Part shown: positions 3,001 to 62,805 of the stretch, in pieces
Layout: each line of letters starts with the position of its first letter
How positions within the stretch are numbered: position 1 is the first letter of the stretch
Source of the DNA: a virus
Strand: one strand, 5' to 3'
Virus record (IMG/VR): IMGVR_UViG_3300028829_004116
Span: 28,256 to 92,255 of that record
Length of the DNA stretch: 64,000 nucleotides
The notes under the pieces: model-generated
What the model was told of the DNA's origin: nothing
The model's database searches: none
What the model saw: the letters and a program-made list of their open reading frames with translations, nothing else
Position numbers and translations under genes: made by a program

Positions 3001-5293
3001 TAAAATGTGGTTTAACGGTACTACAATGGATATAGGTGCTGTTACAACTTCACAAGTATTTAGCCTTACGGTTGGTTCGGACAGCAGTTATAATCAAGTA
3101 ACATTGAGATTAACAAATGTAACTAATACGGCATTAACCTTTGCTACTGACACGGGGAGTACAAGTCCCGGTTGGTCTAATTCGGATGAAACAAATTGTG
3201 TATTAACAATAAAAGGTCACTCTACAACAGTGAGTAAATCTGCACAGAGATTATTCCCAATAAGAGCAATACAGGACAGCAAACATGGAGGTGCATTTAC
3301 ATTTAAAAATATGCACCCAGTTATTTTAGACATACCTACCTATTCTGGAAATACAGGGTCCGACGCATTAGGAACAAGTATTGAATGTAAGGCTACTGGT
3401 GCTATTATTACAGAAGAACCTGAAAGTATTTCACATTTTTCTATACAAGTAGGTGGGTTTAAACATGATGAAAGCGTATATGATGTAGACGGATTAGAAA
3501 TTTTAGTTCATAACGATTCAACAAGTAGTTCTGCTACCCCCGGAATATATGAAAATAATATTGGTGGAACAAATTTTGCTGGAGTAAGACCGATAGAAGT
3601 TTTATTCAAACCATTTATAGATGTATCAGATTTCACAGTAACAACACATGCCGATGATGCTAGTTTAAAAACTACTGAAAAGATTTTATCTACTAATATG
3701 AAGGTAGATGTTTTAGATTATAACGCCGGTAGCGGCACTAATGAATGGTTATGTTATTCTAATAATTTGACAGGTTACTATTTATATGGAAATAATAAAT
3801 TATATAAAATTATTTCTCACACTGTTGCTAAAGACTCTACAACATTTAAACATTATTTAAAAATAGATAATACCAATATTGCCAGCACAGGTCCTACGGT
3901 AGCCGCTACCCCAAGTGGTAATTTAACTCTTATGAAAATTAATCAAACCTGTACTTACGATTATTCACCTAAAGAAATACAATTAAATAAGCCTTCTTAT
4001 CTTTACACTAAAAAACCCGGACATGATAAAATGACAGATAAAGTACCTTCAGCACTTGATATAAGAGGTGGAAAGGAAATTCTTAATGGTGGATATTATT
4101 TAAGTGGTATCGCAAGGGGAGGTATTGAATCTTTATATACTGTAATTGAACCTGATGGCACTGGAGGTAGTTATTTAATACCTCGGACAAATTCTGATAT
4201 TTCATTTACAAATAGTTTTTCAATTAATAGCGAACATTCAGTGTATATAACTGACGGTATTAATTCACTAAGAACTTCTATGTTTGTAAGTAATAATAAG
4301 TCGTTGTCATTTACAGATATGAAAGAGATGAAAGGCACACCTTCTATCGGAAGTATTTTTACTATTACTACTAACCAAAATCCAGACTTTAAACCTGAAT
4401 CAATTAGTATCTGCGCCCCGTTTAAAGTCGTGAGAGAAGCAGAAGAAATTGCCGATGATATTTTATCTAAGGTTGGATTACCGTATAATAAATCAGATAA
4501 TACCGACAGATATTATTTAGCGGCAAATTACACAGGAGAGAATGCTCTTACTGCCACTAATAATGCCTTATCATTTAAAGGTTTAAAATTAAAAACAGCA
4601 GGGCAGGATATAATTATTACCAGTGATGAAGATGAAAAGGATTATAGAGATATTGTTTTTGATGAAGATGATGATAAATATTCTATCATTAGTATTAAAA
4701 AGGACAAAACTCTCTATGATAGATTTAACAAAGTAATTTTATACGGAGATGGAGTTAGAGGGTTTGCTTCTAATTACAGAGATATTAAAAAACGCAATAG
4801 AGAATATGTTAAAGAAGTCTACGACTTTTCAATTGTAGATTCAAAACAAGTACAAGAAAAGGCAATTAAATTATTAAAATTATTTACAAATTTACAGGAA
4901 GCCGTTGAGATTGAAGTTGGCAATAGAATACCTTTCTTAGAATCAGGACATATAGTTACAGTTAGTTTCCCAACTGAGGGTATTGATAGAGGGGAATATG
5001 TGGTAATAGAAGTTAATAGAGAAATGGCCTACCCCGTTAAAATACTGCTTGGACAATATAATAGAGATTTAGCAAATACATTTTCCATGTTACTTTCGGA
5101 AACACGCAATTTACAAGGGAGGTCTAAGCAAAAAGTTTATACGAGTGTGACCTCTCCTAATGTTGATATACAAGCGATGAAGGTGAAATTAGTTAGGGCG
5201 AGCATAACTAAAACAACACAAGCAACTGCCAGTAGTGGTTCAACATTAGGATTAACAAAGGGATTAGGTTTAGATTCGGGGATGGGACTATGA
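2..5293 (+). CDS. Tail hub / baseplate-like protein, 5'-partial
   Basis: The frame is open from base 2, so the gene begins outside the window; the first in-frame ATG (329) is internal. At least 1763 residues are encoded. The start of the visible part holds a short segment (FKYEITGRDVIGDLLN) and the C-terminal 250 residues hold a segment (IPFLESGHIVTVSFP, then YPVKILLGQYNRDL) that resemble the ends of phage late-control-D/gp27-type hub proteins. The long middle is rich in Thr, Ser, Asn and Gly, as in beta-rich insertions. I infer a tail hub or baseplate protein with large inserted domains. The next gene overlaps its stop by four bases (ATGA). The class (structural tail protein) is firmer than the exact subunit. 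Confidence 0.65.
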   Translation, partial: DIHGLEYVYEGRYYGYNAKVITGDKPNGFTTLDFEPESSYYSNSHILNSLKGNLLVYRTIFEGKIESTETKVEQGQFKYEITGRDVIGDLLNTAVNTNYTYSDEFVYSTMNPFNENYTDIGRNVSSISGAVVTADGAPNVNFGDVLYLKGTHGSLDPSYYLLGVVKSVSGNDITLVKDCYIRKHTTFVGDTTLATDIYKARRSVLAGKTLETSLRNTDRATTLIGSADKGAVFTTGKYFDYGTAYADNGKLNTITSRTIEGCTFSNTSTTITTPADGTADLIAGMLVRGTGIPDKATIVSITNTTTFTLSANTTSASATGGNSLIFGDLNGFEINNLITTISDDTDYTDSPIAFDFHYNTISSMVDFPVLSEVDTKDGLTQFEIGYVSPIVVGRIETDNLLDTFIESSDTAQASRKNNSIYLINGQGMPLGGFLHLLGGEVNTDKSPKTFNNDFEEDPTLNGTVNSQYALRFNSPIWRYVNKCFGRLTRNLATKITSANTTYPFHYNDYYEKVSNYHFYASGYKASVGRIPTADEHKDDTDADKPYRIELPTERTGLLPAVGSRSYDITRYPDNFNTSENHYGRRLEIDDTGISMVDRYKATYELYDNDSGPLHIFSIGDIYPESKKNPNNIGFTEGTYSRSIADYGVVFKGQPKGAEVVLSHTNWSGVSTIKNRLNDDYFYQPIESSKGDLKRMNLVRLTDVTYDMMMNEVDYENYKFDNFGGPKTHQIISEQITKNSHIIKSFTESGFSPIDITLTSNISAGTTIAVNDDGWFDTGGNYIYTLYTDPFDSYSANSAHNDFDYGVPLLIGQVASVSNNTITIPAISVSHPAVGYTSGSKLYVTVKLAAESATTNTLSISGNNRQQFPIIKVTEVDNGDGVMDHNYNTTMALVNVGDGNTTGPDLDAGDGDIAEENRFPLNVDNGTIAATLHDINGIVKLPYIPDSITDGSHFNGNNGLETTTGTNTHMFRWNFDANFNGAVMTITNGKALDFFQSNGQGKMWFNGTTMDIGAVTTSQVFSLTVGSDSSYNQVTLRLTNVTNTALTFATDTGSTSPGWSNSDETNCVLTIKGHSTTVSKSAQRLFPIRAIQDSKHGGAFTFKNMHPVILDIPTYSGNTGSDALGTSIECKATGAIITEEPESISHFSIQVGGFKHDESVYDVDGLEILVHNDSTSSSATPGIYENNIGGTNFAGVRPIEVLFKPFIDVSDFTVTTHADDASLKTTEKILSTNMKVDVLDYNAGSGTNEWLCYSNNLTGYYLYGNNKLYKIISHTVAKDSTTFKHYLKIDNTNIASTGPTVAATPSGNLTLMKINQTCTYDYSPKEIQLNKPSYLYTKKPGHDKMTDKVPSALDIRGGKEILNGGYYLSGIARGGIESLYTVIEPDGTGGSYLIPRTNSDISFTNSFSINSEHSVYITDGINSLRTSMFVSNNKSLSFTDMKEMKGTPSIGSIFTITTNQNPDFKPESISICAPFKVVREAEEIADDILSKVGLPYNKSDNTDRYYLAANYTGENALTATNNALSFKGLKLKTAGQDIIITSDEDEKDYRDIVFDEDDDKYSIISIKKDKTLYDRFNKVILYGDGVRGFASNYRDIKKRNREYVKEVYDFSIVDSKQVQEKAIKLLKLFTNLQEAVEIEVGNRIPFLESGHIVTVSFPTEGIDRGEYVVIEVNREMAYPVKILLGQYNRDLANTFSMLLSETRNLQGRSKQKVYTSVTSPNVDIQAMKVKLVRASITKTTQATASSGSTLGLTKGLGLDSGMGL

Positions 5294-5634: not shown

Positions 5635-7952
5635 TGACAATAACGACAGCAAATCAAAAAGGAATAACAACTTTGGGTGGAACCAGCGGTTTAGTAGACC
5701 AAACAGATAAAATGCACAGTGGACTTATAAAGGCTTTAGAGGTATTTGGACAGGGTAGAAAAATTATGGGACACGCTGGATTTGAAATATATGATTCGGG
5801 TTCCTATGTGGGTTATAGACTTAAACAACCTATACACTTTTTAGATTTAGGTCGCCATGTTACATATGAAACAAATTTAGAAGTTTCATATACTTCTCAA
5901 CAAAGAGATGCTAATTATGATAAATATGATTGGGTTGTATTAGTTCCTAATCATGGTGGTAATCCTGCACTTCTTATTGTTCCGGGGACTCTCGACGGTG
6001 CTAACGCTTTAGTTTCGGATATAACAGAAGGTTGTATTCCCGTTGCTTTGATTAAGGTTCCTGCTGGAACAGATACCGACGATACCACCGGTTATCAAGC
6101 ACAGTTATATACATTTAATAATCGTCGCCAAGATTTATCACTTGGATATGATGACGGGGCAACGCCACCTTATTATAAAAATACATTAACTGCTATTTCA
6201 TCCGCAGGAGGAACTACTTTTACTAATACTATTGGAGATTTAATTTTTGACAATACAGATGTTAACGACCAAATTGTTATGAGATTAGGAACTGATACTA
6301 CTGCTACCGCTTTTGAAGTTAGAAACGATTCCGACACAGCCGCTTTTAAAGTTAATGGTTTATCCGCTACTGATGTTGTAGGTAATTTAGTTGTCACACA
6401 GGGTTCAGCAGGTGGACAAATAGCACTTAAGATTGATAATGATGATGTTGATAAAGTTGCTTTAGGTATTGAAGCCGCAAATACAACTGCTAATGTTTTA
6501 GATATTACTGCTAATGCTTTGACTACCGGTGCGGTTATTAAAAGTTCTTCGACGGCATTAACTACTGGGGCGGCTATTGATTTAATTTCTACTTCTACAC
6601 CTGCTGATGGTAGTGGTTCTACACCCCACACTTTTAAAACTACTCAAGCGGGAACTGGAACTCATACAGTAAAGGGGCTACTTGTAGATGTAAATAAAAC
6701 CGGAGTTACGGATAATGGGAAAACAACTACTCTTACTGGAATACATTTAGATGTTGATGATACGGCTACAAATAATTCAGTAGGAACAGTAACTATGACA
6801 GGTTTAGATATAGATGTGAACTCGGCTAGTGATACTGGAACCATAAAAAACATTGGATTAGATGTAGAGGTTGCAGGGGCAGATACTAATTATGCCGCTT
6901 TATTTAATGGTGGTAATGTTGGTATTGGGACAACAGCACCAGAAAGAGCATTAGAAATAGAAGCCGCTTCAAACCCCGGAATTAGATTACAAGAAACGGG
7001 TCAATCGGGATATTTAGAGATGTTTGGTTTAGCAGATAGCCAAGCACAGATTAAAGCCACTAACGCAACTTCGGGAGAAACATGTAGTCTTGATATAGAT
7101 GTATCAACTGTATCGGGTAATAATCAAGTAATAAGATTTTTCCGTAATGCTAATACATCTTCTGCTGGTATTATCCAAGTTCACGACCCCGGAGAAGTAA
7201 CAACAACTTTAGCAGTTGTAGCCGCTAATGGAAAGACCTCGATAGGAAGTGGAACAGTTGATGCTAATTCAATGCTAACAGTCGAAGGGGCAATTTCTTT
7301 AGATGAAATAGGAGTTGCACCTACTAATACTGCTGATAGAGCGCAACTATATGCAATACAGGGAGATAGACATTTGCGTTATGTAGATGGTGCTGGTGTT
7401 GATTTACCTATATTATTAGGAGGAAAACATTCTATTTGGATTCCCGCAGAAGCAATTAGTCCGAGAAGTAATGCTGGTTGTGGTGCTTTGGCTACAACAG
7501 CCGCCGCTACAAATGGAAGACCTGATATTAGAGCATTACCTTTTGATAAAGATTCAGATGAACATGGACAATTTACAATAGCGATGCCCGCTACTTGGAA
7601 TGGAGGAACTGTGACAGCACAATTTTATTGGACTTCAACTTCTTCAACAACTTCCCATGATGTAACTTGGGCTATTCAAGGTGTTTCTTTAGCAAATGAT
7701 AATCCAATTGACACCGCTTTTGGAACTGCCGTGGTTAAACACGATACAGTAATAGCGGCTAAAGACCTTCATATTAGTGGTGAAACAGGTGCAATAACTG
7801 TTGCAGGTGCAGGTGCAGGAGAATTAGTTTGTTTTCAAGTTTATCGAGATGTTGATGGAAACGGAACTGCCGCTAATGATGATTTAAATGTTGATGCTTT
7901 ATTAATGGGAGTTAAAATATTTTATACTATTTCAAGAGGAAATGAGTCGTGA
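5634..7952 (+). CDS. Tail fibre / receptor-binding protein
   Basis: This 772-residue protein starts where the previous gene stops. The N-terminal 150 residues look like a virion attachment domain. Residues about 200-430 are repetitive and rich in Thr, Ala, Asp and Val, with short strands of the kind seen in triple-stranded beta fibres. Around residue 430 is NVGIGTTAPERALEIEAAS, a phrase common in phage fibre and spike proteins, and a globular C-terminal part follows. I infer a tail fibre that contacts the host surface. The Thr- and Ala-rich codons produce a long open frame on the opposite strand, which is not a gene. Confidence 0.65.
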   Translation: MTITTANQKGITTLGGTSGLVDQTDKMHSGLIKALEVFGQGRKIMGHAGFEIYDSGSYVGYRLKQPIHFLDLGRHVTYETNLEVSYTSQQRDANYDKYDWVVLVPNHGGNPALLIVPGTLDGANALVSDITEGCIPVALIKVPAGTDTDDTTGYQAQLYTFNNRRQDLSLGYDDGATPPYYKNTLTAISSAGGTTFTNTIGDLIFDNTDVNDQIVMRLGTDTTATAFEVRNDSDTAAFKVNGLSATDVVGNLVVTQGSAGGQIALKIDNDDVDKVALGIEAANTTANVLDITANALTTGAVIKSSSTALTTGAAIDLISTSTPADGSGSTPHTFKTTQAGTGTHTVKGLLVDVNKTGVTDNGKTTTLTGIHLDVDDTATNNSVGTVTMTGLDIDVNSASDTGTIKNIGLDVEVAGADTNYAALFNGGNVGIGTTAPERALEIEAASNPGIRLQETGQSGYLEMFGLADSQAQIKATNATSGETCSLDIDVSTVSGNNQVIRFFRNANTSSAGIIQVHDPGEVTTTLAVVAANGKTSIGSGTVDANSMLTVEGAISLDEIGVAPTNTADRAQLYAIQGDRHLRYVDGAGVDLPILLGGKHSIWIPAEAISPRSNAGCGALATTAAATNGRPDIRALPFDKDSDEHGQFTIAMPATWNGGTVTAQFYWTSTSSTTSHDVTWAIQGVSLANDNPIDTAFGTAVVKHDTVIAAKDLHISGETGAITVAGAGAGELVCFQVYRDVDGNGTAANDDLNVDALLMGVKIFYTISRGNES

Positions 7953-40414: not shown

Positions 40415-40514
40415 TAGGTGTAGCGCATAACACCACTATTATTCACCAATAATTATTATCTGTTTTAACTACCATATGGTTGCGGTATCGTTAATTTGTT
40501 TAGTAGCAACCTCG

Positions 40515-40551
40515 AAAAAAAGGCCCCCCACCCCTCCGAAGAAGGGTGAGG
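40515..40551 (-). terminator. Terminator of the 40623 gene
   Basis: On the minus strand CCTCACCC pairs with GGGGTGGG (one G-U) around a 9-base loop, followed by GGCC and T7. It is 50 bases downstream of the short peptide ORF that follows the 117-aa gene, so it should end that transcript before the hexamer-repeat region. Confidence 0.6.
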
Positions 40552-40599
40552 AGCGGCACTCCTACTTAAAAGCAGGTGAAAACGACTAATTCGACTTAA

Positions 40600-40626
40600 T
40601 CATTCATCATCATCAAAGAGGTTCAT
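40600..40626 (-). CDS. Acidic micropeptide MNLFDDDE
   Basis: An 8-codon ORF starts in an ATGA overlap with the stop of the 117-aa gene (...CAATGA) and reads MNLFDDDE. The same arrangement, with MSIFFDDDE, follows the 221-aa gene on the other strand, and two similar short ORFs lie at 43535 and 43632. The repetition on both strands argues against chance. Expression is not shown. Confidence 0.45.
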   Translation of the reverse strand: MNLFDDDE

Positions 40627-40976
40627 TGAGAAGCCGCCTTAATGGATGCGATTTTGGCTTTAGTGAGTCGCTCACTGATGTTTTCGATTGTTCGGTCACG
40701 AGGAACCGACAAATCGGGATAAGCATTGAAAATTGCATGAAGCATCTTTGACGATTCTACAACATCGGCTTTTTCAGCCTCATTCAATACCACTTTCAAG
40801 CGTGTTCCCTTGATAATAAGGTGAACCTGTTCAACCCATTGTCCGACTCTTGGCGAGTCGGGGTGTTGTTCAATTCGCTCCAAATACATTTGAACATCAT
40901 CAATGTTCATTGGGTCGTTTGCTTCATTTTCAAGCCATATGTTGGCCTTCGCTACTACTTTTTCGGTGTCAAGCAT
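40623..40976 (-). CDS. 117-aa protein under the palindrome promoter
   Basis: ATG 40976 follows GGAGAG. The protein is helical: DTEKVVAKANIWLENEA, IEQHPDSPRVGQWVEQVHLIIKG, and a basic C-terminus (ERLTKAKIASIKAASQ). I recognise no family. It is driven by the minus-strand copy of the palindrome/TATA promoter (41022-41060) and, like the 221-aa gene, ends in SQ followed by an overlapping acidic micropeptide. These shared features suggest one regulon. Confidence 0.6.
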   Translation of the reverse strand: MLDTEKVVAKANIWLENEANDPMNIDDVQMYLERIEQHPDSPRVGQWVEQVHLIIKGTRLKVVLNEAEKADVVESSKMLHAIFNAYPDLSVPRDRTIENISERLTKAKIASIKAASQ

Positions 40977-41021
40977 TCTTATCTCTCCTGCCCTTTCGGG
41001 TATTATTATCATCTAATTAAA

Positions 41022-41060
41022 CCCTATAAGGTAGTAAGCAAATCAGCCTTACCATATGGT
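41022..41060 (-). promoter_or_regulatory. Palindrome/TATA promoter, copy 1
   Basis: On the minus strand ACCATATGGTAAGG (41051-41060 plus four) is followed by a spacer with ATTTG and then CTACCTTATAGG, with the TATA core at 41024-41030. The spacing equals that of copies at 41625 and 42544. The 117-aa gene starts about 50 bases downstream. Confidence 0.6.
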
Positions 41061-41234
41061 TCAAGATTTCAAAAAATAAAAAGTTCAGGCGAAGCGAAAC
41101 TTGTTAAAGGGTGGCTTGAGGGTGGTGAAAAGAACAAGTCTTTACTTTGCGGTTTTTTGAAACAACGAAGTGTCTTTAATCTCAGGCTCGTACCTTACCA
41201 TATGGTAATAACGACAAGTGAAGTGTAAGGAGTA

Positions 41235-41301
41235 AGCAGTATTCAATGAACAATACTGCTACGACGCAACATTCTTCACCGAGTTTATCCTTAATAAAAG
41301 G
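41235..41301 (+). ncRNA. Hairpin module, copy 1 (candidate small RNA)
   Basis: Perfect 9-bp hairpin AGCAGTATT / AATACTGCT with an 8-base loop, then CTACGAC, then a second hairpin CCTT/AAGG at 41289-41301. The same order, with the stem sequence conserved and the loop changed, recurs at 43886-43951. Both copies follow ACCATATGGTAATAA and AAGGAGTA. A loop-variable, stem-conserved pair suggests RNA structure under selection. A 32-codon ORF over this copy has no counterpart in copy 2, so I do not call it. Confidence 0.45.
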
Positions 41302-41624
41302 TATGGACATTCCATTTTCCGAGGGAGTGAACTCCCCGTGACAAAATATTGCCCACCCTCATACCACCCTATTTTATCACTATCGGAACCATATGGTAAG
41401 GAAACATAATGTTTTCTATGTTAAGCGAAAAGAAATGTATGCAAAGACTAATACATTCTTTGAGCGGCAGGGCTATTAGCCCAATAGAAGGGCATTAGTA
41501 TTGCGAAACCTGACGAAAAATAAGGACCGTAAAAGACGACTTCGCAAACCTTTGCTTCATTTCCCTCCCACATGCACACCCATATTCTGCAAAATTTGCC
41601 TCACCGTTTTTTACTTGCTTCGCA

Positions 41625-41663
41625 TCCATATGGTAAGGAAAATTTGTCGAACACCTTATATCT
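41625..41663 (+). promoter_or_regulatory. Palindrome/TATA promoter, copy 2
   Basis: TCCATATGGTAAGGA, then AATTTGTCG, then ACACCTTATATCT with the TATA core at 41656-41663. The 221-aa gene starts 42 bases downstream (GGGGGTT before its ATG). The sequence matches copy 3 closely through the whole block. The gene-free stretch 41061-41624 upstream contains palindromes at 41197 and 41388, the hairpin module and the G-rich pairs, and nothing else that I see. Confidence 0.65.
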
Positions 41664-41704
41664 ATTTCGTCATAGGTAATGATACCCGAAGGGGGTTAAG
41701 TATT

Positions 41705-42370
41705 ATGGCTGATAAAACAGACAAAAAAATGATGACTGACGATGAATGGAATGCGTGGACCGCTGATGTTAAAACATTTGTAGAAAACAAGGCTGAGGTT
41801 TTGCGACTTACAGCACTTCCCGAAAACGATGAACAGTTGCGTGGAGGCGAGGCATTTAATGCCGATAACTTTGAAGATGATTTTCAAGATATTGTTAATT
41901 TCTTAAGCCGTGGTTCTACCCGAATCGCTATGCGTGGAATATACAAGACTGATATTCTTTCCCGTGGTCGAAAAATGTCACTTTGGCCTAAGCGTCAAGG
42001 TGGCGGTGTTTCAATGCCAGCATATCAACAAACGGTTCTTAATCAAGCGGATGCAATTTACTCAGAAGCATATACCGCTTTTTGGAATGTTCTTGAAGAA
42101 CACGGTGCTTCTCACCTTGAAATGACTCGTGCTTCAAATGTCAAACAAGAAGATGGGCAACCTTACTCGAATGTTCAAGCATTCGTTAAGACTCGAAAGA
42201 CTTCAAAGATTGCAGGTCTTAAAGCAGACATCAAGGACAATCTTTGGGTTGATGCAAATAACGAAAAGAAGTTCAGTATTTCAAATGCACTTCTTCGACC
42301 TGCCGACCCATCAAAAGCACCTGTGGTCGAACAGGCTCAAGACGACAATGAAGAAGAGGACTCTCAATGA
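41705..42370 (+). CDS. 221-aa protein under the palindrome promoter
   Basis: The start at 41705 (MADKTDKKMMTDDEW) is chosen over an upstream extension that would run through the promoter. The N-terminal 80 residues are acidic and helical, the middle has MSLWPKRQGGGVSMPAYQQTVL and a helical FWNVLEEHG segment, and the C-terminus is acidic (QDDNEEEDSQ). I recognise no family. The high expression-type codon use and dedicated promoter suggest an abundant early protein, perhaps DNA-binding. Confidence 0.65.
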   Translation: MADKTDKKMMTDDEWNAWTADVKTFVENKAEVLRLTALPENDEQLRGGEAFNADNFEDDFQDIVNFLSRGSTRIAMRGIYKTDILSRGRKMSLWPKRQGGGVSMPAYQQTVLNQADAIYSEAYTAFWNVLEEHGASHLEMTRASNVKQEDGQPYSNVQAFVKTRKTSKIAGLKADIKDNLWVDANNEKKFSISNALLRPADPSKAPVVEQAQDDNEEEDSQ

Positions 42371-42396
42371 GTATCTTCTTTGACGACGATGAATGA
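42367..42396 (+). CDS. Acidic micropeptide MSIFFDDDE
   Basis: A 9-codon ORF starts at an ATGA overlap with the 221-aa gene and reads MSIFFDDDE. Its stop lies within a perfect 8-bp hairpin, GAATGATT-TTT-AATCATTC (42391-42409), a possible transcription end. It is the plus-strand partner of the micropeptide at 40600. Confidence 0.45.
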   Translation: MSIFFDDDE

Positions 42397-42543
42397 TTTT
42401 TAATCATTCGGGGAATTGACGGGTTAAAGAAAAGAACTCGCTGTGTTGAGTAAACAATGCAGGGCAAAACAAATCGGAGTTATGGATTCTCCTTAAAAAT
42501 CCACCTTTTTTAAGGCAAGGTCTATCATACAAATTACTTTGAT

Positions 42544-42583
42544 ACCATATGGTAAGGATAATTTGTAGCACACCTCATATAGG
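42544..42583 (+). promoter_or_regulatory. Palindrome/TATA promoter, copy 3
   Basis: ACCATATGGTAAGGA, then TAATTTGTAG, then CACACCTCATATAGG with the TATA-like core at 42575-42583. It is nearly identical in layout to copies 1 and 2. The gene at 42603 starts 20 bases past the TATA core, so its mRNA would be nearly leaderless. Confidence 0.6.
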
Positions 42584-42602
42584 TTTTGATGGCGGCTAAG
42601 GT

Positions 42603-42776
42603 ATGTTTTGGAAGAAACGAGAACCGAAGTTTGTAATTAAAGTTAAGCAGAACCGCTACGAGAAGTTCATCATTGATGAATTGCGTGTAAGTGCGGATAG
42701 TCAAGAAGAGTTAGAAAAAGAACTCATTCTTGCACTAAAACAAATCTCTCAACAACTTCAGGAGATGAACGCTTGA
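42603..42776 (+). CDS. 57-aa hypothetical protein
   Basis: The frame from ATG 42603 reads MFWKKREPKFVIKVKQNRYEK at its start, followed by helices (SQEELEKELILALKQISQQL). Basic N-terminus and coiled C-terminal half. It is the first of three coupled genes behind promoter copy 3 and ends in a TGATG junction. Confidence 0.55.
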   Translation: MFWKKREPKFVIKVKQNRYEKFIIDELRVSADSQEELEKELILALKQISQQLQEMNA

Positions 42777-42970
42777 TGAGAATTGGCCCTGTTGCACCTT
42801 TAGGTCATGGCTTTGTTGAAAAGCCTTATACTAATTGTAAATGGTGTCAAACAAAACTCGACCCCAACCAACACATGATGTATTATTGCGATACCGCTTG
42901 TTTTCATAAACAAAACATAACGGGTGGAATGATACAAACCTTTTATGTTCCAAAGGAGGAAGAAGAATGA
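42776..42970 (+). CDS. 64-aa zinc-finger protein
   Basis: ATG 42776 overlaps the upstream stop. CKWCQTKLDPNQH near residue 21 and YYCDTACFHKQ near residue 37 (CxxC and CxxxC) can form a treble-clef or ribbon zinc site. The tail is KEEEE. Probably a nucleic-acid-binding regulator; inferred from zinc site and position. Confidence 0.58.
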   Translation: MRIGPVAPLGHGFVEKPYTNCKWCQTKLDPNQHMMYYCDTACFHKQNITGGMIQTFYVPKEEEE

Positions 42971-43131
42971 AATACCCAGAAAAATTCATAACAGCGGCTC
43001 TAATTAAAATGGACTCCGAAGAACTTTCTGCTTTGGCAGATGCTCTATGGGAAGATTGGAAAAGAGTCAACGATGCTTTGAATGTAGTTAAGGATATGGA
43101 ACTACAACAAAGTGAAGCAAGTGAAGAATAA
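42967..43131 (+). CDS. 54-aa acidic helical protein
   Basis: AAGGAGG lies about 11 bases before the ATG, which overlaps the upstream stop. The product is helical and acidic (MDSEELSALADALWEDWKRV). Last gene of the three-gene unit; a hairpin at 43274-43295 may end the transcript. Confidence 0.52.
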   Translation: MKYPEKFITAALIKMDSEELSALADALWEDWKRVNDALNVVKDMELQQSEASEE

Positions 43132-43273
43132 TTCCTTAGCGGTGGAGGGTGGCATAAGGTGGGGTATGATAATGATGGTAAGTTATCTACGCCCTTTCTA
43201 CCTAATCTTGGTGATTAAAGTGATAAATATAAAAGAGAGTAGTAATTCTAATCTCGGCCAAAAATAATTACCG

Positions 43274-43295
43274 AAAGGGTGTAAGGCCCTTTTCT
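43274..43295 (+). terminator. Hairpin downstream of the 42603 unit
   Basis: GAAAGGG-TGTAAGG-CCCTTTTC forms a 6-7-bp stem, 140 bases after the last gene. The surrounding gene-free interval 43132-43490 also holds a G-rich pair (43146) and a T-rich stretch near 43441-43462 that resembles an archaeal oligo-T terminator. I see no other gene there. Confidence 0.4.
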
Positions 43296-43534
43296 ACTCC
43301 CTAAAAAGAGATATGTGGGTTTGTTTAATAAAAATACTAAAAGTTTAAGGCTTGTTTTCGTTTGTGCTTCGTTTATTCGGGGTTTTTTGATAGAACATAA
43401 GATGGCGGCTGTGAAAAGTCGGTCTTAGGTATTTTCCCACTATCTTTTTTTTCTTTTTTTATGATAAGGCTTGGTTACAAATTACCCCTTACCATATGGT
43501 ATGCACAGCATAATACCGCAGGAGGTGAACAGGA

Positions 43535-43570
43535 ATGATTTGTGAAGACGATGAATGCGATTGCGAATAA
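43535..43570 (+). CDS. Acidic micropeptide MICEDDECDCE
   Basis: An 11-codon ORF has GGAGGTGA seven to eight bases upstream of its ATG, a far better site than chance suggests. It is preceded by ACCATATGGTA and a leader that can fold (GGTAT...ATACC). It reads MICEDDECDCE, acidic with three cysteines. The leader is duplicated in front of the next micropeptide. Confidence 0.45.
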   Translation: MICEDDECDCE

Positions 43571-43631
43571 TCATTCTATTTCTGTTACCATATGGTAGGC
43601 GTAAGCATAATCTACCGCAGGAGGTGTAAAA

Positions 43632-43655
43632 GTGTTCTTTGACGATGACGAGTAA
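43632..43655 (+). CDS. Acidic micropeptide (GTG)FFDDDE
   Basis: A 7-codon ORF starts with GTG after GGAGGTG and reads MFFDDDE. Upstream is the same layout as at 43491: ACCATATGGTA, AGCATAAT, ACCGCAGGAGGTG. With MSIFFDDDE and MNLFDDDE it makes a series with a common FDDDE ending. Confidence 0.45.
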   Translation: MFFDDDE

Positions 43656-43675
43656 CCCCGTATCTAACTTTTCTT

Positions 43676-43742
43676 ACCATATGGTAGGGCTGGCGTGACA
43701 TGTAAATGTATAGCCAAAATGCACACCTTACCTATATATAAG
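43676..43742 (+). promoter_or_regulatory. Palindrome followed by strong TATA box
   Basis: ACCATATGGTAGGG at 43676 is followed 46 bases later by CACACCTTACC-TATATATAAGG, a near-ideal archaeal TATA box (43732-43742). No protein-coding frame starts within the next 390 bases, so the product may be a non-coding RNA spanning the second hairpin module. Confidence 0.5.
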
Positions 43743-43885
43743 GACATATCTTATGGAACTTTAACACAGCCGTTCCTTATTCCCACCCTCAAGCACACCC
43801 TACATTCGTCACTCTCCGTGTTAAAATTCCATAACATACTTTCTACTACATAGAACCATATGGTAATAATAATGAGGAAGGAGTA

Positions 43886-43951
43886 GGCAGTATTCACAAG
43901 ATAATACTGCTACGACTGAACGAGTATATATATATCCTTAAAAAATAAGGA
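43886..43951 (+). ncRNA. Hairpin module, copy 2 (candidate small RNA)
   Basis: GCAGTATT / AATACTGC with an 8-base loop (plus a closing G-U), then CTACGAC, then TCCTTA / TAAGGA at 43935-43951. It is the second copy of the module at 41235, again directly after ACCATATGGTAATAA. The gene-free interval 43656-44137 holds this module, three palindromes and two G-rich pairs. Confidence 0.45.
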
Positions 43952-44137
43952 CATAATGTCATTATTTTCGTTAGTAAGTGAAAATATCTTCCCACCCACA
44001 TACCTACCCATATTTTTATTATCTACGAACCATATGGTAAGTAAAAAGGTAGTCCAAAAATTTACCTTACCATATGGTTCACTTTGGGAATTTTTTTATT
44101 AAAAAACATTAAATACGCAAAGCCCGTCATAATAAAT

Positions 44138-44673: not shown

Positions 44674-45345
44674 ATGGATTGGAAGGATATATTAAAAATT
44701 AAAATAAACAGTTTAAGTGATGCTTCAAGGGTAGCGAGAGATTATGTGCCGGAAGATTACATAGAGGGGCATTTACTTACACAAGAAGAATATGATAAAT
44801 TGTCCAATGAGGAAAAAAGAAAATATCATAAGAAAGTTTATAATAAATACGCAAATTTAAATCTAAATAATAGAAGAGAGGCCAAATGGCATAATAACAA
44901 TGCAGGGCGAATAAAGACCGATATAGGAAATGCTATTTTAAAACCCCACCCCACAGAAGAAGAAGATTTTAAGCCAGCACCAACAGGCTTTCCGGCAAAA
45001 CCAAATAGTTATAAAAATATTTTACAAGGGTCAGGTAGAAGATTATATGGACCATATAGACTTCGTACAGCAAAAGCACACGGATATAGAGTACCGAGAA
45101 AACCACAAAGAAAAAGGGGTCCAAAAAGAAAAAGGGGTGCAAAAAAGGGTTCAAAACACGAGTCTACAAAATTAAGAGAAAAACGACAAAACGAGAAAAT
45201 CAACCAAATCATCGTTGATTATTTTAAAATCTATAACAGTAGGTTTGGCCGTAATCCCACTTTACAAGAAATAGCAAATGAAGAGGATAGACCCCTTACA
45301 GTAGATGAAATTGAATCGTTTAAGAGATATGCACAGGGTAGGTAA
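44674..45345 (+). CDS. Tagged protein (MDWKDILK), basic, 223 aa
   Basis: The tag MDWKDILKIKI is followed by a helical part, a Pro-rich linker near residue 90, and a very basic stretch near residues 120-165 (KPQRKRGPKRKRGAKKGSK). A C-terminal helix-turn-helix-like end (GRNPTLQEIANEEDRPLTVDEI) follows, resembling a sigma/TFB-type HTH. An internal KNILQGSGRRLYGPYRLR near residue 114 partly repeats the tag core. DNA binding is likely. Confidence 0.68.
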   Translation: MDWKDILKIKINSLSDASRVARDYVPEDYIEGHLLTQEEYDKLSNEEKRKYHKKVYNKYANLNLNNRREAKWHNNNAGRIKTDIGNAILKPHPTEEEDFKPAPTGFPAKPNSYKNILQGSGRRLYGPYRLRTAKAHGYRVPRKPQRKRGPKRKRGAKKGSKHESTKLREKRQNEKINQIIVDYFKIYNSRFGRNPTLQEIANEEDRPLTVDEIESFKRYAQGR

Positions 45346-60036: not shown

Positions 60037-61448
60037 TGGACTTACTTACAGAAATGGATATGAAAGCCTCCGATGGTAATTTTGAATATTTCTTTACAAA
60101 AATTCTCGGAATGGAAATGGCAGACTTTCACCGTGATTGGCTACAATCAGTTCACGACACTCAAAGAACTGTAATTATTTGTTCTCGTGACCACGGAAAA
60201 TCTGTATTCTTTCACTCTTGGTGTATCTATCAATTAATTTTTCAACCTCCGCCGTATCAAATGATTTACATTTCATCAAACCAAAAGCAGACAATGGTTC
60301 ACATGAAAGACATTGACCGAATGTTCACAAACATTCCTGCCCTAAGAAAATATAAACCTAAAGCAGGTTGGGCTGTCGGCTCAATGAGATTAACAAACGG
60401 AAATGAAATACTTGAGCGTTCCGTTGGTTCACAAATTCGTGGACTTCACCCTCAAGAGATTATTATTGACGACCCGATGAAGGAGTTTTCTGTTGCCGCT
60501 ATACAGCGAGTCACAGATTGGTTTTGGGGTGACATGATTCCTACTCTTCACCACACCGCTACTTTGCGAATGGTCGGTACACCTTTCACATACACTGATA
60601 TATTTGCCGCATTGGAGGAAAACCCTGAATATGATGTGCAACGCTATCCAGCGATAAATGAAACAGGGGATGCTCTTTGGCCCTCCCGTTGGGATATAGA
60701 TTCTTTAGAAAAGAGAAGGCGAGAAATCGGTTCTTCTAAGTTTACAAGAGAATATCTTTGCATACCAATTTCATCCAACACGATGTTATTTGGAAAAGAA
60801 TTTATCGACAAGTCTAAAGACCGAACAAGTAAGTTATCGTATCATGGCAATACTGAGGCATTCAAATACTACATTGGCTATGACCCCTCACTTTCAGCAG
60901 ACGGGGATTACACAGTAATGATGGTTATTGAAGTAGATGAGGATATGAATAAAAAGGTGGTTTGGATGGTAAGAGAAAAAAATATGGATTTCCGTTCACA
61001 CATCACCCGCATTACAGACCTTTGCGAGAGATACAAACCCGAAGTTGTAATGATTGAAACTAATACATTCGCAAAGTCCTTCGCTATGGAATTGCGTGAC
61101 ATATCCGACTTTCCCGTTAAAGAATTTACAATGCACCGTAAGAAGAAAGAGGAAATTATTCTTAACTTGCAGATGAATTTGGAGAATAATAAAATTATAC
61201 TACCCTATGCGGATGAAAAAGCAAAGGGTGTTTCCGACGCAATTATACAAGAACTCGAAGCATTCGGTATTAGCAGTACGGGAAAAATTGAAGGTTTGGG
61301 CGCACACGATGATATTGTTATTGCCCTCGCTTTGGCTAATCACGCCACAAAGTCTTTTAATGATGCTTTCATAGACATAGACAGTAGCGGGTTATTTGGA
61401 ACACCAAAACAAGATTTCGGAGGTGGAATATATGGAATTAATATGTAA
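60036..61448 (+). CDS. terL: Terminase large subunit
   Basis: 470 residues. The ATPase has Walker A-like CSRDHGKSVF near residue 49, a Q-like YISSNQKQT, and Walker B IIIDDPMKE near residue 142. The RNase H-like nuclease has YIGYDPSLSADGDY near residue 282, VVMIETNTFAKS near residue 335, and AHDDIVIALALA near residue 424, the three acidic sites. It cuts and pumps DNA into the capsid. It is followed by a LAGLIDADG protein and the portal. Confidence 0.92.
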   Translation: MDLLTEMDMKASDGNFEYFFTKILGMEMADFHRDWLQSVHDTQRTVIICSRDHGKSVFFHSWCIYQLIFQPPPYQMIYISSNQKQTMVHMKDIDRMFTNIPALRKYKPKAGWAVGSMRLTNGNEILERSVGSQIRGLHPQEIIIDDPMKEFSVAAIQRVTDWFWGDMIPTLHHTATLRMVGTPFTYTDIFAALEENPEYDVQRYPAINETGDALWPSRWDIDSLEKRRREIGSSKFTREYLCIPISSNTMLFGKEFIDKSKDRTSKLSYHGNTEAFKYYIGYDPSLSADGDYTVMMVIEVDEDMNKKVVWMVREKNMDFRSHITRITDLCERYKPEVVMIETNTFAKSFAMELRDISDFPVKEFTMHRKKKEEIILNLQMNLENNKIILPYADEKAKGVSDAIIQELEAFGISSTGKIEGLGAHDDIVIALALANHATKSFNDAFIDIDSSGLFGTPKQDFGGGIYGINM

Positions 61449-62805
61449 GGAAGATGAAATTAATACAGACGAACTTCGCAGAAAGTTGCCAGAACTTGAA
61501 GAGGCACAAAGACTTGAAGCGGAAAAAAAGAAAGAAATAAAAGATTTATTGAAACTTAGTGAATGGCTACCATATCAGTCAATTGATGAAACTGAAGTTA
61601 TCAAAGACATTTCTAAAATATATCAAGTTAATCTCACCGAAGCAAGAAATATGCTTTCTTCTTTTCCTGAAGAACCACTAATTGATAACAAACCTATACC
61701 GGATATTGTTAAAGATTTACGAAATATGCGTAGAAAATTGAAGGGTGATTCGAGAATGAAAATGAGTAAGACAATAGACCATCTGATTAACGCATATGGT
61801 GAACATTTGAATAAGTGCATGGATTCTATATATTGGATTTCGCCATACAAGCCCGCACTTAAATTACTTACTCCAGATTTAGTCACTCTAAGAAAATTGG
61901 AACATATTAAAGACGGAGATGTGAGGGCAAATATTCTTGATAATCTTACAAAGATGTGGGAGGCTAATATATTTAAAAATGAATTAGACTACGGTAAAGA
62001 ATATACTGATTATACTAAAGTGTTTAAGGAGAGTAAGAAAAATATTCGCTCTACAATTAAAGACATTTCACATCAATCAATTAGAAAGTCAAGACAAGAT
62101 GTATTGGATAACATTATCACTAAAACTATTTGTAATAATCCGGGTATCTCAAGTAATAGTATTCACTCGATGTTGCCCAAAAGTTATCATCGTTCTACTA
62201 CACCACAGACAATTTCTAAAATGTTAAGAAGAATTAACGCCACGAATGTTAACGGAGATTACTACATTCTTAGTGATACTATAAAGAAAGACCTTTATGG
62301 ATATGTAGCAGGATTTATTGACTCGGATGGTTATATTACTATGGACTCGTCTTATTCTCCCCGTGTAGGCATGATTGCCACAGGAGATAGAGGTCGTGCA
62401 TTTTTCCAAGAAATGGAAAAGGAACTAAAAATTGGCCGCCTACATTTAGACCAAAAGGTGGGAGAAAATAACCGTAGTCAGCATAGGTTAAATTTTTATA
62501 GTCAAAACGATATTACAAAATTGTTAGACAAGTGCCTACCCCACCTTCGTATGAAAAAGGAACAAGGTAGGCTTTTACAAGAGGCTATTAAAATTAAGAA
62601 ACATTACAAGAAAGAACCGTGGGCAAAAGACAGAATGGTAGAAATTTTTAAACTTATCAAGTGGGAAAACTGGAAGGATGCCCGCAAGCAAGGTGCTGTT
62701 GAATTTGAAAAATATGATATACGGCCCGATAATATTTCAAAATATAAGGATAACTGTAAGTGGGATTTAATGAACGAGATGGATTCTATCGTTAAGGAGG
62801 AATAA
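61432..62805 (+). CDS. LAGLIDADG-domain protein between terminase and portal
   Basis: Start ATG 61432 follows GGAGGTGG, inside the end of the terminase. 457 residues: an acidic helical N-terminus, a basic middle, a winged-helix-like part at 215-280 (NIITKTICNNPGISSNSIHSML), then the LAGLIDADG signature GYVAGFIDSDGYITM near residue 290 and matching strands to about 420. One LAGLIDADG copy implies a homodimer or a half-site nuclease. It could be a domesticated homing nuclease involved in packaging. Confidence 0.65.
   Translation: MELICKEDEINTDELRRKLPELEEAQRLEAEKKKEIKDLLKLSEWLPYQSIDETEVIKDISKIYQVNLTEARNMLSSFPEEPLIDNKPIPDIVKDLRNMRRKLKGDSRMKMSKTIDHLINAYGEHLNKCMDSIYWISPYKPALKLLTPDLVTLRKLEHIKDGDVRANILDNLTKMWEANIFKNELDYGKEYTDYTKVFKESKKNIRSTIKDISHQSIRKSRQDVLDNIITKTICNNPGISSNSIHSMLPKSYHRSTTPQTISKMLRRINATNVNGDYYILSDTIKKDLYGYVAGFIDSDGYITMDSSYSPRVGMIATGDRGRAFFQEMEKELKIGRLHLDQKVGENNRSQHRLNFYSQNDITKLLDKCLPHLRMKKEQGRLLQEAIKIKKHYKKEPWAKDRMVEIFKLIKWENWKDARKQGAVEFEKYDIRPDNISKYKDNCKWDLMNEMDSIVKEE

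Follow-up and report, generated by a model that had tools for sequence, protein, structure and literature searches.

A 64-kb stretch of viral DNA (bases 28256-92255 of the 92,255 bp record IMGVR_UViG_3300028829_004116; hereafter the window) carries, within one region of repeated palindromes, very short open reading frames (micro-ORFs) for acidic peptides. By gene content and size the source record fits the magrovirus type; none of the records in this analysis is formally classified. A preliminary description of the window had placed four micro-ORFs in this region, and all four are found: MNLFDDDE (40600-40626, minus strand), MSIFFDDDE (42367-42396, plus strand), MICEDDECDCE (43535-43570, plus strand) and (M)FFDDDE (43632-43655, plus strand). 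That description gave them a shared (F)DDDE ending. Three have it, and DDDE is indeed written by three different codings; MICEDDECDCE is a related Cys/acidic variant. The fourth had been given as MFFDDDE; its start codon is GTG, not ATG.

Two of the micro-ORFs are coupled to longer genes, whose stops they overlap as ATGA in agreement with the preliminary description. MNLFDDDE follows gene A (40623-40976, minus strand; 117 amino acids, starting MLDTEK behind GGCAGGAGAGATAAGA, with a mechanical ORF that reaches 41012) and is the 3'-terminal cistron of its cassette. Likewise, MSIFFDDDE follows gene B (41705-42370, plus strand; 221 amino acids with an acidic disordered C-tail) and is preceded by AAGAGGA. 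The gene B promoter (41626-41664, plus strand) consists of the palindrome CCATATGG, TTTGT and the TATA-like CACCTTATATCTA, a layout common to the listed gene-cassette promoters: palindrome, ~10 nucleotides (nt), TTTGT or CTTTG, ~8 nt and CACCTTATAT.

The other two micro-ORFs stand alone in consecutive micro-cassettes on the plus strand. Micro-cassette 1 is bounded by a palindrome (TTACCATATGGTAT, 43492-43499) and contains a hairpin, P1, with arms GGTAT..ATACC (43498-43517) that covaries across 23 cassettes, the Shine-Dalgarno (SD) site AGGAGGTGA (43520-43528; -15.9 kcal/mol with the anti-SD) and MICEDDECDCE. A palindrome at 43588-43595 divides it from micro-cassette 2, which holds the P1 hairpin GGTAG-GC-GTAA-GC..CTACC (43594-43616), the SD site AGGAGGTG (43619-43626; -13.9 kcal/mol), (M)FFDDDE, and the 3' arm (AACTTTTCTTACC, 43667-43679) of a second stem, P2, whose partner is the SD spacer and start region GGTGTAAAAGT; a palindrome at 43677-43684 ends the cassette. 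Both standalone ORFs follow GCAGGAGGTG, itself 3' of CCATATGG, which bears out the strong SD sites and palindrome leaders first reported for them.

The FDDDE-stop pattern TTYGAYGAYGAYGARTRA has 3 matches in the 64 kb, vs 0 in each of 100 dinucleotide-preserving shuffles. All 12 copies of CCATATGG in the window lie at 40472-44077 (3.6 kb), as do all three FDDDE-stop frames, and a search of the whole record for the 14-base form of the palindrome found copies confined to the same region.

Acidic micro-ORFs are kept in the palindrome regions of related viruses

Related records are labelled L### below; beyond a pattern search of 50 of them, we read the palindrome regions of ~16 further records. The nearest relative, L005, whose gene B is 81% identical, keeps MNLFDDDE as MNHFDDDE with the tail GAC GAT GAT GAA (a synonymous GAT to GAC change), MSIFFDDDE in identical form and (GTG)FFDDDE, which many other relatives keep as well. 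The MICEDDECDCE cassette is absent from L005, where an inserted gene has an additional TTG-FDDE at its end. FDDDE- or FDDEE-stop frames were found in 6 of the 50 related records (11 matches; 0 in the reversed control), and those with comparable coordinates all fall within palindrome clusters. The ~16 further records display a general acidic micro-ORF pattern, wider than FDDDE, and all retrieved magrovirus palindrome regions bear such ORFs, bar one truncated by a contig end. Acidic ORFs of 5-16 codons number 66 in 63.9 kb of palindrome regions (1.03/kb) vs 43 in 1,553 kb of control loci (0.028/kb), where the matches are mostly E-runs. The preliminary description had named loss of the frames from relatives within conserved surrounding DNA as the result that would speak against it; the opposite is seen, the frames being kept while the surrounding DNA diverges.

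Coupling to gene ends is equally regular. An overlapping acidic micro-ORF follows 22/22 family B genes, members of which are as little as 11-30% identical to the window copy, and 6/6 family A genes. These coupled ORFs overlap the stop of cassette genes and start with ATG, GTG, TTG or CTG. Among genes of at least 110 amino acids, 28/44 inside palindrome regions have an acidic micro-ORF overlapping the stop vs 1/1063 outside (Fisher p 3e-43), and the sole outside case (L127) sits at a palindrome-region edge. In a further family, A2 (4 proteins), the protein's own frame ends FDDE (FDIE in one), and 3/4 members have GGAGG 8 nt upstream of an internal ATG that would free MFSFDDE or MFHIFDDE. Regional density, gene-end linkage and the shuffle test together rule out a chance origin of the acidic micro-ORFs. 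The possibility that E-runs are simply the SD of the next gene was also considered; it is true for the KEEEE-type ends of a three-gene cassette (e.g. window 42968) and for many control matches, and false for D-rich ends.

Searches with the gene A and B proteins (Pfam, PHROGs, AlphaFold2, Foldseek) gave no usable match. For the gene A protein, Pfam returned no family at E<=0.1, the only hit was a marginal PHROG of unknown function (E 0.032), and its model had no PDB match at E<=0.001. The AlphaFold2 models of A and B are all-helical and of moderate confidence (pLDDT 77 and 75, pTM 0.48 and 0.45).

Standalone micro-cassettes share an order and covarying stems

We gathered 23 distinct standalone micro-cassettes, which run from palindrome to palindrome over 80-135 bp in the order P1 hairpin, GCAGGAGG(G/T), 6-11 codon ORF and stem P2. 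Their peptides include MFFDDDE, MFDDDE, MFDCDE, MYCDDE and MFNEDDE. P1 begins in the right half of the first palindrome (GGT..GC-GNNA-GC..ATATT..ACC), with stem variants GGTAG/CTACC, GGTAT/ATACC, GGTTCAT/ATGAACC, GGTCAT/ATGACC and GGTTGTCCA/TGGACACC. P2 is formed by the spacer and start codon together with the 3' untranslated region (UTR), and extends to the ACC of the next palindrome. As P1 stems are too variable for MAFFT alignment, arm permutation was used as the covariation test, and for P1 and for P2 the own arms paired better than permuted arms in 5000/5000 permutations each. Folding z-scores of individual cassettes are modest (mean -1.5), so that support for structure comes from covariation. 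Rfam 15 covariance models gave no credible match in three palindrome regions. A C/D-box-like RNA reading of GATGATGA was dropped, since codings such as GACGATGACGAG break the box.

D/E exchanges are frequent among the peptides and several standalone peptides contain Cys; two closely related cassettes with near-identical flanks code DCDE in one and DDCE in the other. Convergent genes lie opposite roughly half of the standalone ORFs, which hence cannot be leaders of those genes; many others precede noncoding cassettes or genes with their own promoters. Some standalone micro-cassettes lie back to back with a gene promoter across the palindrome (e.g. L143 4977). A cassette of 81-83 bp has the frame (ATG)RDDDE in L149 671; in L141 5241, L142 6713, L147 5023, L148 5289 and L151 1327 ATA replaces ATG and the RDDDE frame is kept. 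In L145, the most divergent lineage read (DNA polymerase PolB 48% identical), the peptides at 1353-1434, 5170-5290 and 6169-6303 end Asp-Ala (..DEDA, ..DDDA, ..DDDDDA).

Palindrome-bounded cassettes are shuffled and inverted among relatives (window 41052-41198 and 43856-44030; L005 1518-1691 and 2106-2253; L137 1382-1540); window 41052-41198, for instance, is the reverse complement of L005 2106-2253. It looks as if the non-directional CCATATGG sites served as recombination points. A second cassette class of ~90-240 bp is noncoding with one G-rich strand (GGGTGGCTTGAGGGTGG type, a possible G-quadruplex); it occurs at window 41052-41626 and 43677-44030 and in many relatives, often with a GCAGTATT..AATACTGC hairpin.

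Ribosome-binding sites and codon positions point to a translated peptide

We compared predicted anti-SD duplex energies. The median is -9.5 kcal/mol for the acidic ORFs (-12.1 for the 21 standalone and -7.1 for the coupled ones), against -1.8 kcal/mol for 1,477 other ORFs of 5-16 codons in the same regions. The difference in SD strength is clear for all acidic ORFs (p 2.5e-24) and for the coupled set alone (p 2e-12).

Aligned tails carry 0.12, 0.12 and 0.43 substitutions per site at codon positions 1, 2 and 3, and their flanks 0.30. Change is faster at the third codon position than at the other two, while start, stop and SD stay. The p-values are only descriptive, given that the tails were chosen by their acidity, that pairs lack independence and that some of the records are nearly identical; the SD test and the gene-end test are independent of the codon argument. 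Together with ORF enrichment, gene-end linkage and strong SD sites, the third-position substitutions back the peptide-level selection proposed in the preliminary description. On this comparative evidence, selection on a translated peptide is strongly supported, and the ORFs, their conservation, their ribosome sites and the peptide-level constraint are well supported. Magroviruses hold a real, conserved family of translated-looking acidic micropeptides that is undescribed in the literature searched; a magrovirus paper (PMC10160649) mentions neither palindromes nor peptides.

The virus and other features of the window

Poseidoniales are abundant ocean archaea. The International Committee on Taxonomy of Viruses profile of Magrovirales describes viruses of Poseidoniales with 90-110 kb genomes, PolB, and divergent morphogenetic and replication modules (PMC12999244), and the window fits this profile. 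It codes for a family B DNA polymerase, a Cpn60-type chaperonin, a ribonucleotide-reductase-like protein, an RFC-like AAA ATPase, an ERCC4-type nuclease and a PD-(D/E)XK nuclease. Relatives of its terminase at 67-99% identity are present in many IMG/VR contigs; in GenBank phage records all terminase relatives are below 60% identity, with no close magrovirus. Matches in genome collections are virus contigs binned into bacterial metagenome-assembled genomes (MAGs), nothing else. Two of the records, L167 (NZTP01000014.1, an Altibacter MAG) and L168 (NZMJ01000115.1, a Maricaulis MAG), have a magrovirus terminase 80-81% identical and are probably misbinned.

At 61396-62805 an ORF overlapping the terminase end has GYVAGFIDSDGYI, by eye a LAGLIDADG-like homing-endonuclease motif. 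Four adjacent genes at 44674, 45351, 46033 and 46730 begin with MGWQDILK, MDWKDILK or a close variant, and in two of these the ending is DILGRW or ELLGKW; a micro-ORF at ~5589 of L005, MGWQDILGRW, combines the start and end motifs.

Possible function of the acidic micropeptides

We favour, tentatively and at somewhat less than even probability, the explanation that the palindrome region encodes ribosomally made acidic micropeptides acting in trans as detached acidic C-terminal tips. The predicted peptides, mostly 6-11 residues, consist of Met, one or a few hydrophobic or aromatic residues and 3-5 Asp/Glu (sometimes Cys), usually with a C-terminal Asp/Glu. They would be produced by two routes: from standalone structured mini-mRNAs with a near-perfect SD site, and by termination-reinitiation at the ends of A- and B-family cassette genes. 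Made at high yield, they would serve as abundant short linear motifs. Their site would be a basic pocket, used for nucleic-acid binding or partner docking, on a protein of the virus or the host, and by filling it they would compete with tail-bearing proteins or nucleic acid. Accumulation of the free peptide and its action in trans on such a pocket are our inference.

The argument for the peptide as the common product is that little besides a ribosome-binding site and an acidic peptide is found in both the standalone and the coupled forms, which have neither RNA structure nor context in common. A high yield would result from repeated translation by one ribosome, which very short strong-SD ORFs can undergo: reiterative translation is possible for ORFs of 2-8 codons and occurs on the 7-codon mccA (PMC6495379). 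There is precedent for a detached tip as well: in Hfq, the isolated acidic-tip peptide acts in trans, binding the basic core in competition with RNA (PMC5606850). The A2 family, with its in-frame FDDE and, in 3/4 members, GGAGG 8 nt ahead of an internal ATG, strengthens the idea.

Several points weigh against action in trans. Neither Pfam (E<=0.01) nor solved folds gave a match for the A and B proteins, and most A/B proteins are not basic overall. Standalone cassettes, unlike the gene cassettes, are without a TATA-like box from palindrome to start. Stem P2, by joining spacer and start codon to the 3' UTR, may be a sign of regulation or function at the RNA level, and peptides this short may be prone to quick degradation. 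Furthermore, the ribosome can be affected in cis by an acidic run near the start of the chain that it is making (PMC11282234).

Comparison with known systems places the peptides near several of them. Like the acidic C-tips of SSB, T7 gp2.5 and Hfq, they present a short Asp/Glu-rich motif at a free C-terminus; unlike these, they are free peptides and not tails, with a hydrophobic residue N-terminal to the acidic run. The tip of E. coli SSB is MDFDDDIPF, with terminal Pro-Phe. No such ending is present: the last residue is D or E in nearly all the peptides and A in the G032 lineage, and it is F in none of those listed. As for a tip on a single-stranded DNA-binding protein, A and B are without a Pfam or solved-fold match, and A2 ends FDDE. 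The earlier proposal of a decoy or regulator resembling an acidic C-tip fits best, with added strength from A2; its specific likeness to the SSB tip is loose at most, failing on the Pro-Phe end that defines that tip. AimP of the arbitrium system is a phage communication hexapeptide processed from a secreted precursor. It too is a six-residue viral peptide signal; the magrovirus ORF is itself the peptide and is without a signal sequence. MccA-type minigenes (microcin C precursor, 7 codons) share a strong SD and ~7 codons, which suit reiterative high-yield translation (PMC6495379), and the standalone ORFs, with their median of -12.1 kcal/mol and mostly 6-11 amino acids, have both. The magrovirus peptides differ in ending in D/E/A where MccA ends in Asn, and in belonging to archaeal viruses with several copies per genome; among cassette genes A, B, A2 and the three-gene cassette of the window, Pfam gave no match to an mccB-like modifying/adenylyltransferase gene. 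MgtL-type regulatory leader peptides also combine a short ORF, acidic residues near the N-terminus and a structured RNA (PMC11282234). The standalone ORFs differ from these in that about half are without a regulated downstream gene on the same transcript, and magrovirus ORFs are also found as the last cistron of gene cassettes.

The main rival, which we judge unlikely though not remote, is a cis-acting translation element, in which translating a short early-acidic ORF matters and the peptide does not. On the standalone RNAs and at the 3' ends of cassette mRNAs, ribosomes would be paused, destabilised or trapped through minigene drop-off or intrinsic ribosome destabilisation; the outcome would be a tuned mRNA fate or a shut-off of translation in the host. 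Early acidic runs do destabilise E. coli ribosomes, and the MgtL leader senses Mg2+ in this way (PMC11282234); 6-8 codons with very strong SD sites are typical of minigenes, the covarying P2 contains the start codon, and coupled ORFs are the last cistrons of their cassettes. However, the half of the standalone ORFs that face convergent genes have no downstream gene to regulate, drop-off needs neither a conserved aromatic/hydrophobic residue nor a tolerated Cys, and the destabilisation data are bacterial, not archaeal. We favour action in trans over action in cis because SD and peptide are all that the two forms share.

It is improbable that the cassettes are nucleic-acid elements, structured RNAs or DNA hairpins (GGU...ACC stems) whose GAN repeats are a spacer or protein-binding motif and whose coding is coincidental. 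Arm preference in P1 and P2 (5000/5000 permutations) and the shuffling of palindrome-bounded cassettes among relatives would suit such elements, but coupled ORFs keep the acidic frame in another sequence context, within and beyond gene ends. Moreover, free variation is seen at third codon positions, in phase with NTG and stop (in data selected for acidity), SD sites stand at proper spacing, and the frame survives D-to-C exchanges.

Programmed frameshifting, which would append the acidic tail to A and B proteins and make the standalone ORFs by-products, is very unlikely. In its favour, the tail is in the -1 frame for genes A, B and C in both the window and L005, a slippery-like GGGGGGA lies ahead of the L005 gene C stop, and A2 has FDDE in-frame. 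A frameshift-fused tail is nonetheless disfavoured because coupled ORFs use both frames, -1 (ATGA-type overlap) in some and +1 in others, the latter including B-family members of L139, L141, L142, L143, L144, L147, L149 and L151; nearly all coupled ORFs also have an NTG start and an SD-like site, and standalone cassettes lack any upstream gene from which a shift could occur. Equally doubtful are short Asp/Glu/Cys chelators or metal sensors made in bulk, which Cys amid acidic residues at shifting positions and constant composition might suggest (MICEDDECDCE, MFDCDE, MFDDCE, MFDCDD, MFCDDD, MYCDDE), but most members lack Cys and metal binding needs no consistent hydrophobic residue before the acidic run.

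It is possible, if a shade less probable than detached acidic tips acting in trans, that this virus order has a repertoire of hexa- to undecapeptides, each with a 6-11 codon gene of its own, located either in a palindrome-bounded cassette that shuffles or at a gene-cassette end, that serve as trans-acting acidic effectors reprogramming a basic protein of host or virus. The acidic micro-ORFs, many of 6-8 codons, are among the shortest genes proposed for any virus. Two arrangements with only the acidic peptide in common make an unusually clean comparative case for peptides of ~7 residues as selected gene products. Genes this short sit under standard gene-finding cut-offs, so annotation would miss a conserved feature of abundant ocean viruses. 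If true, these peptides would be a previously unknown viral effector class, among the shortest autonomous genes known.

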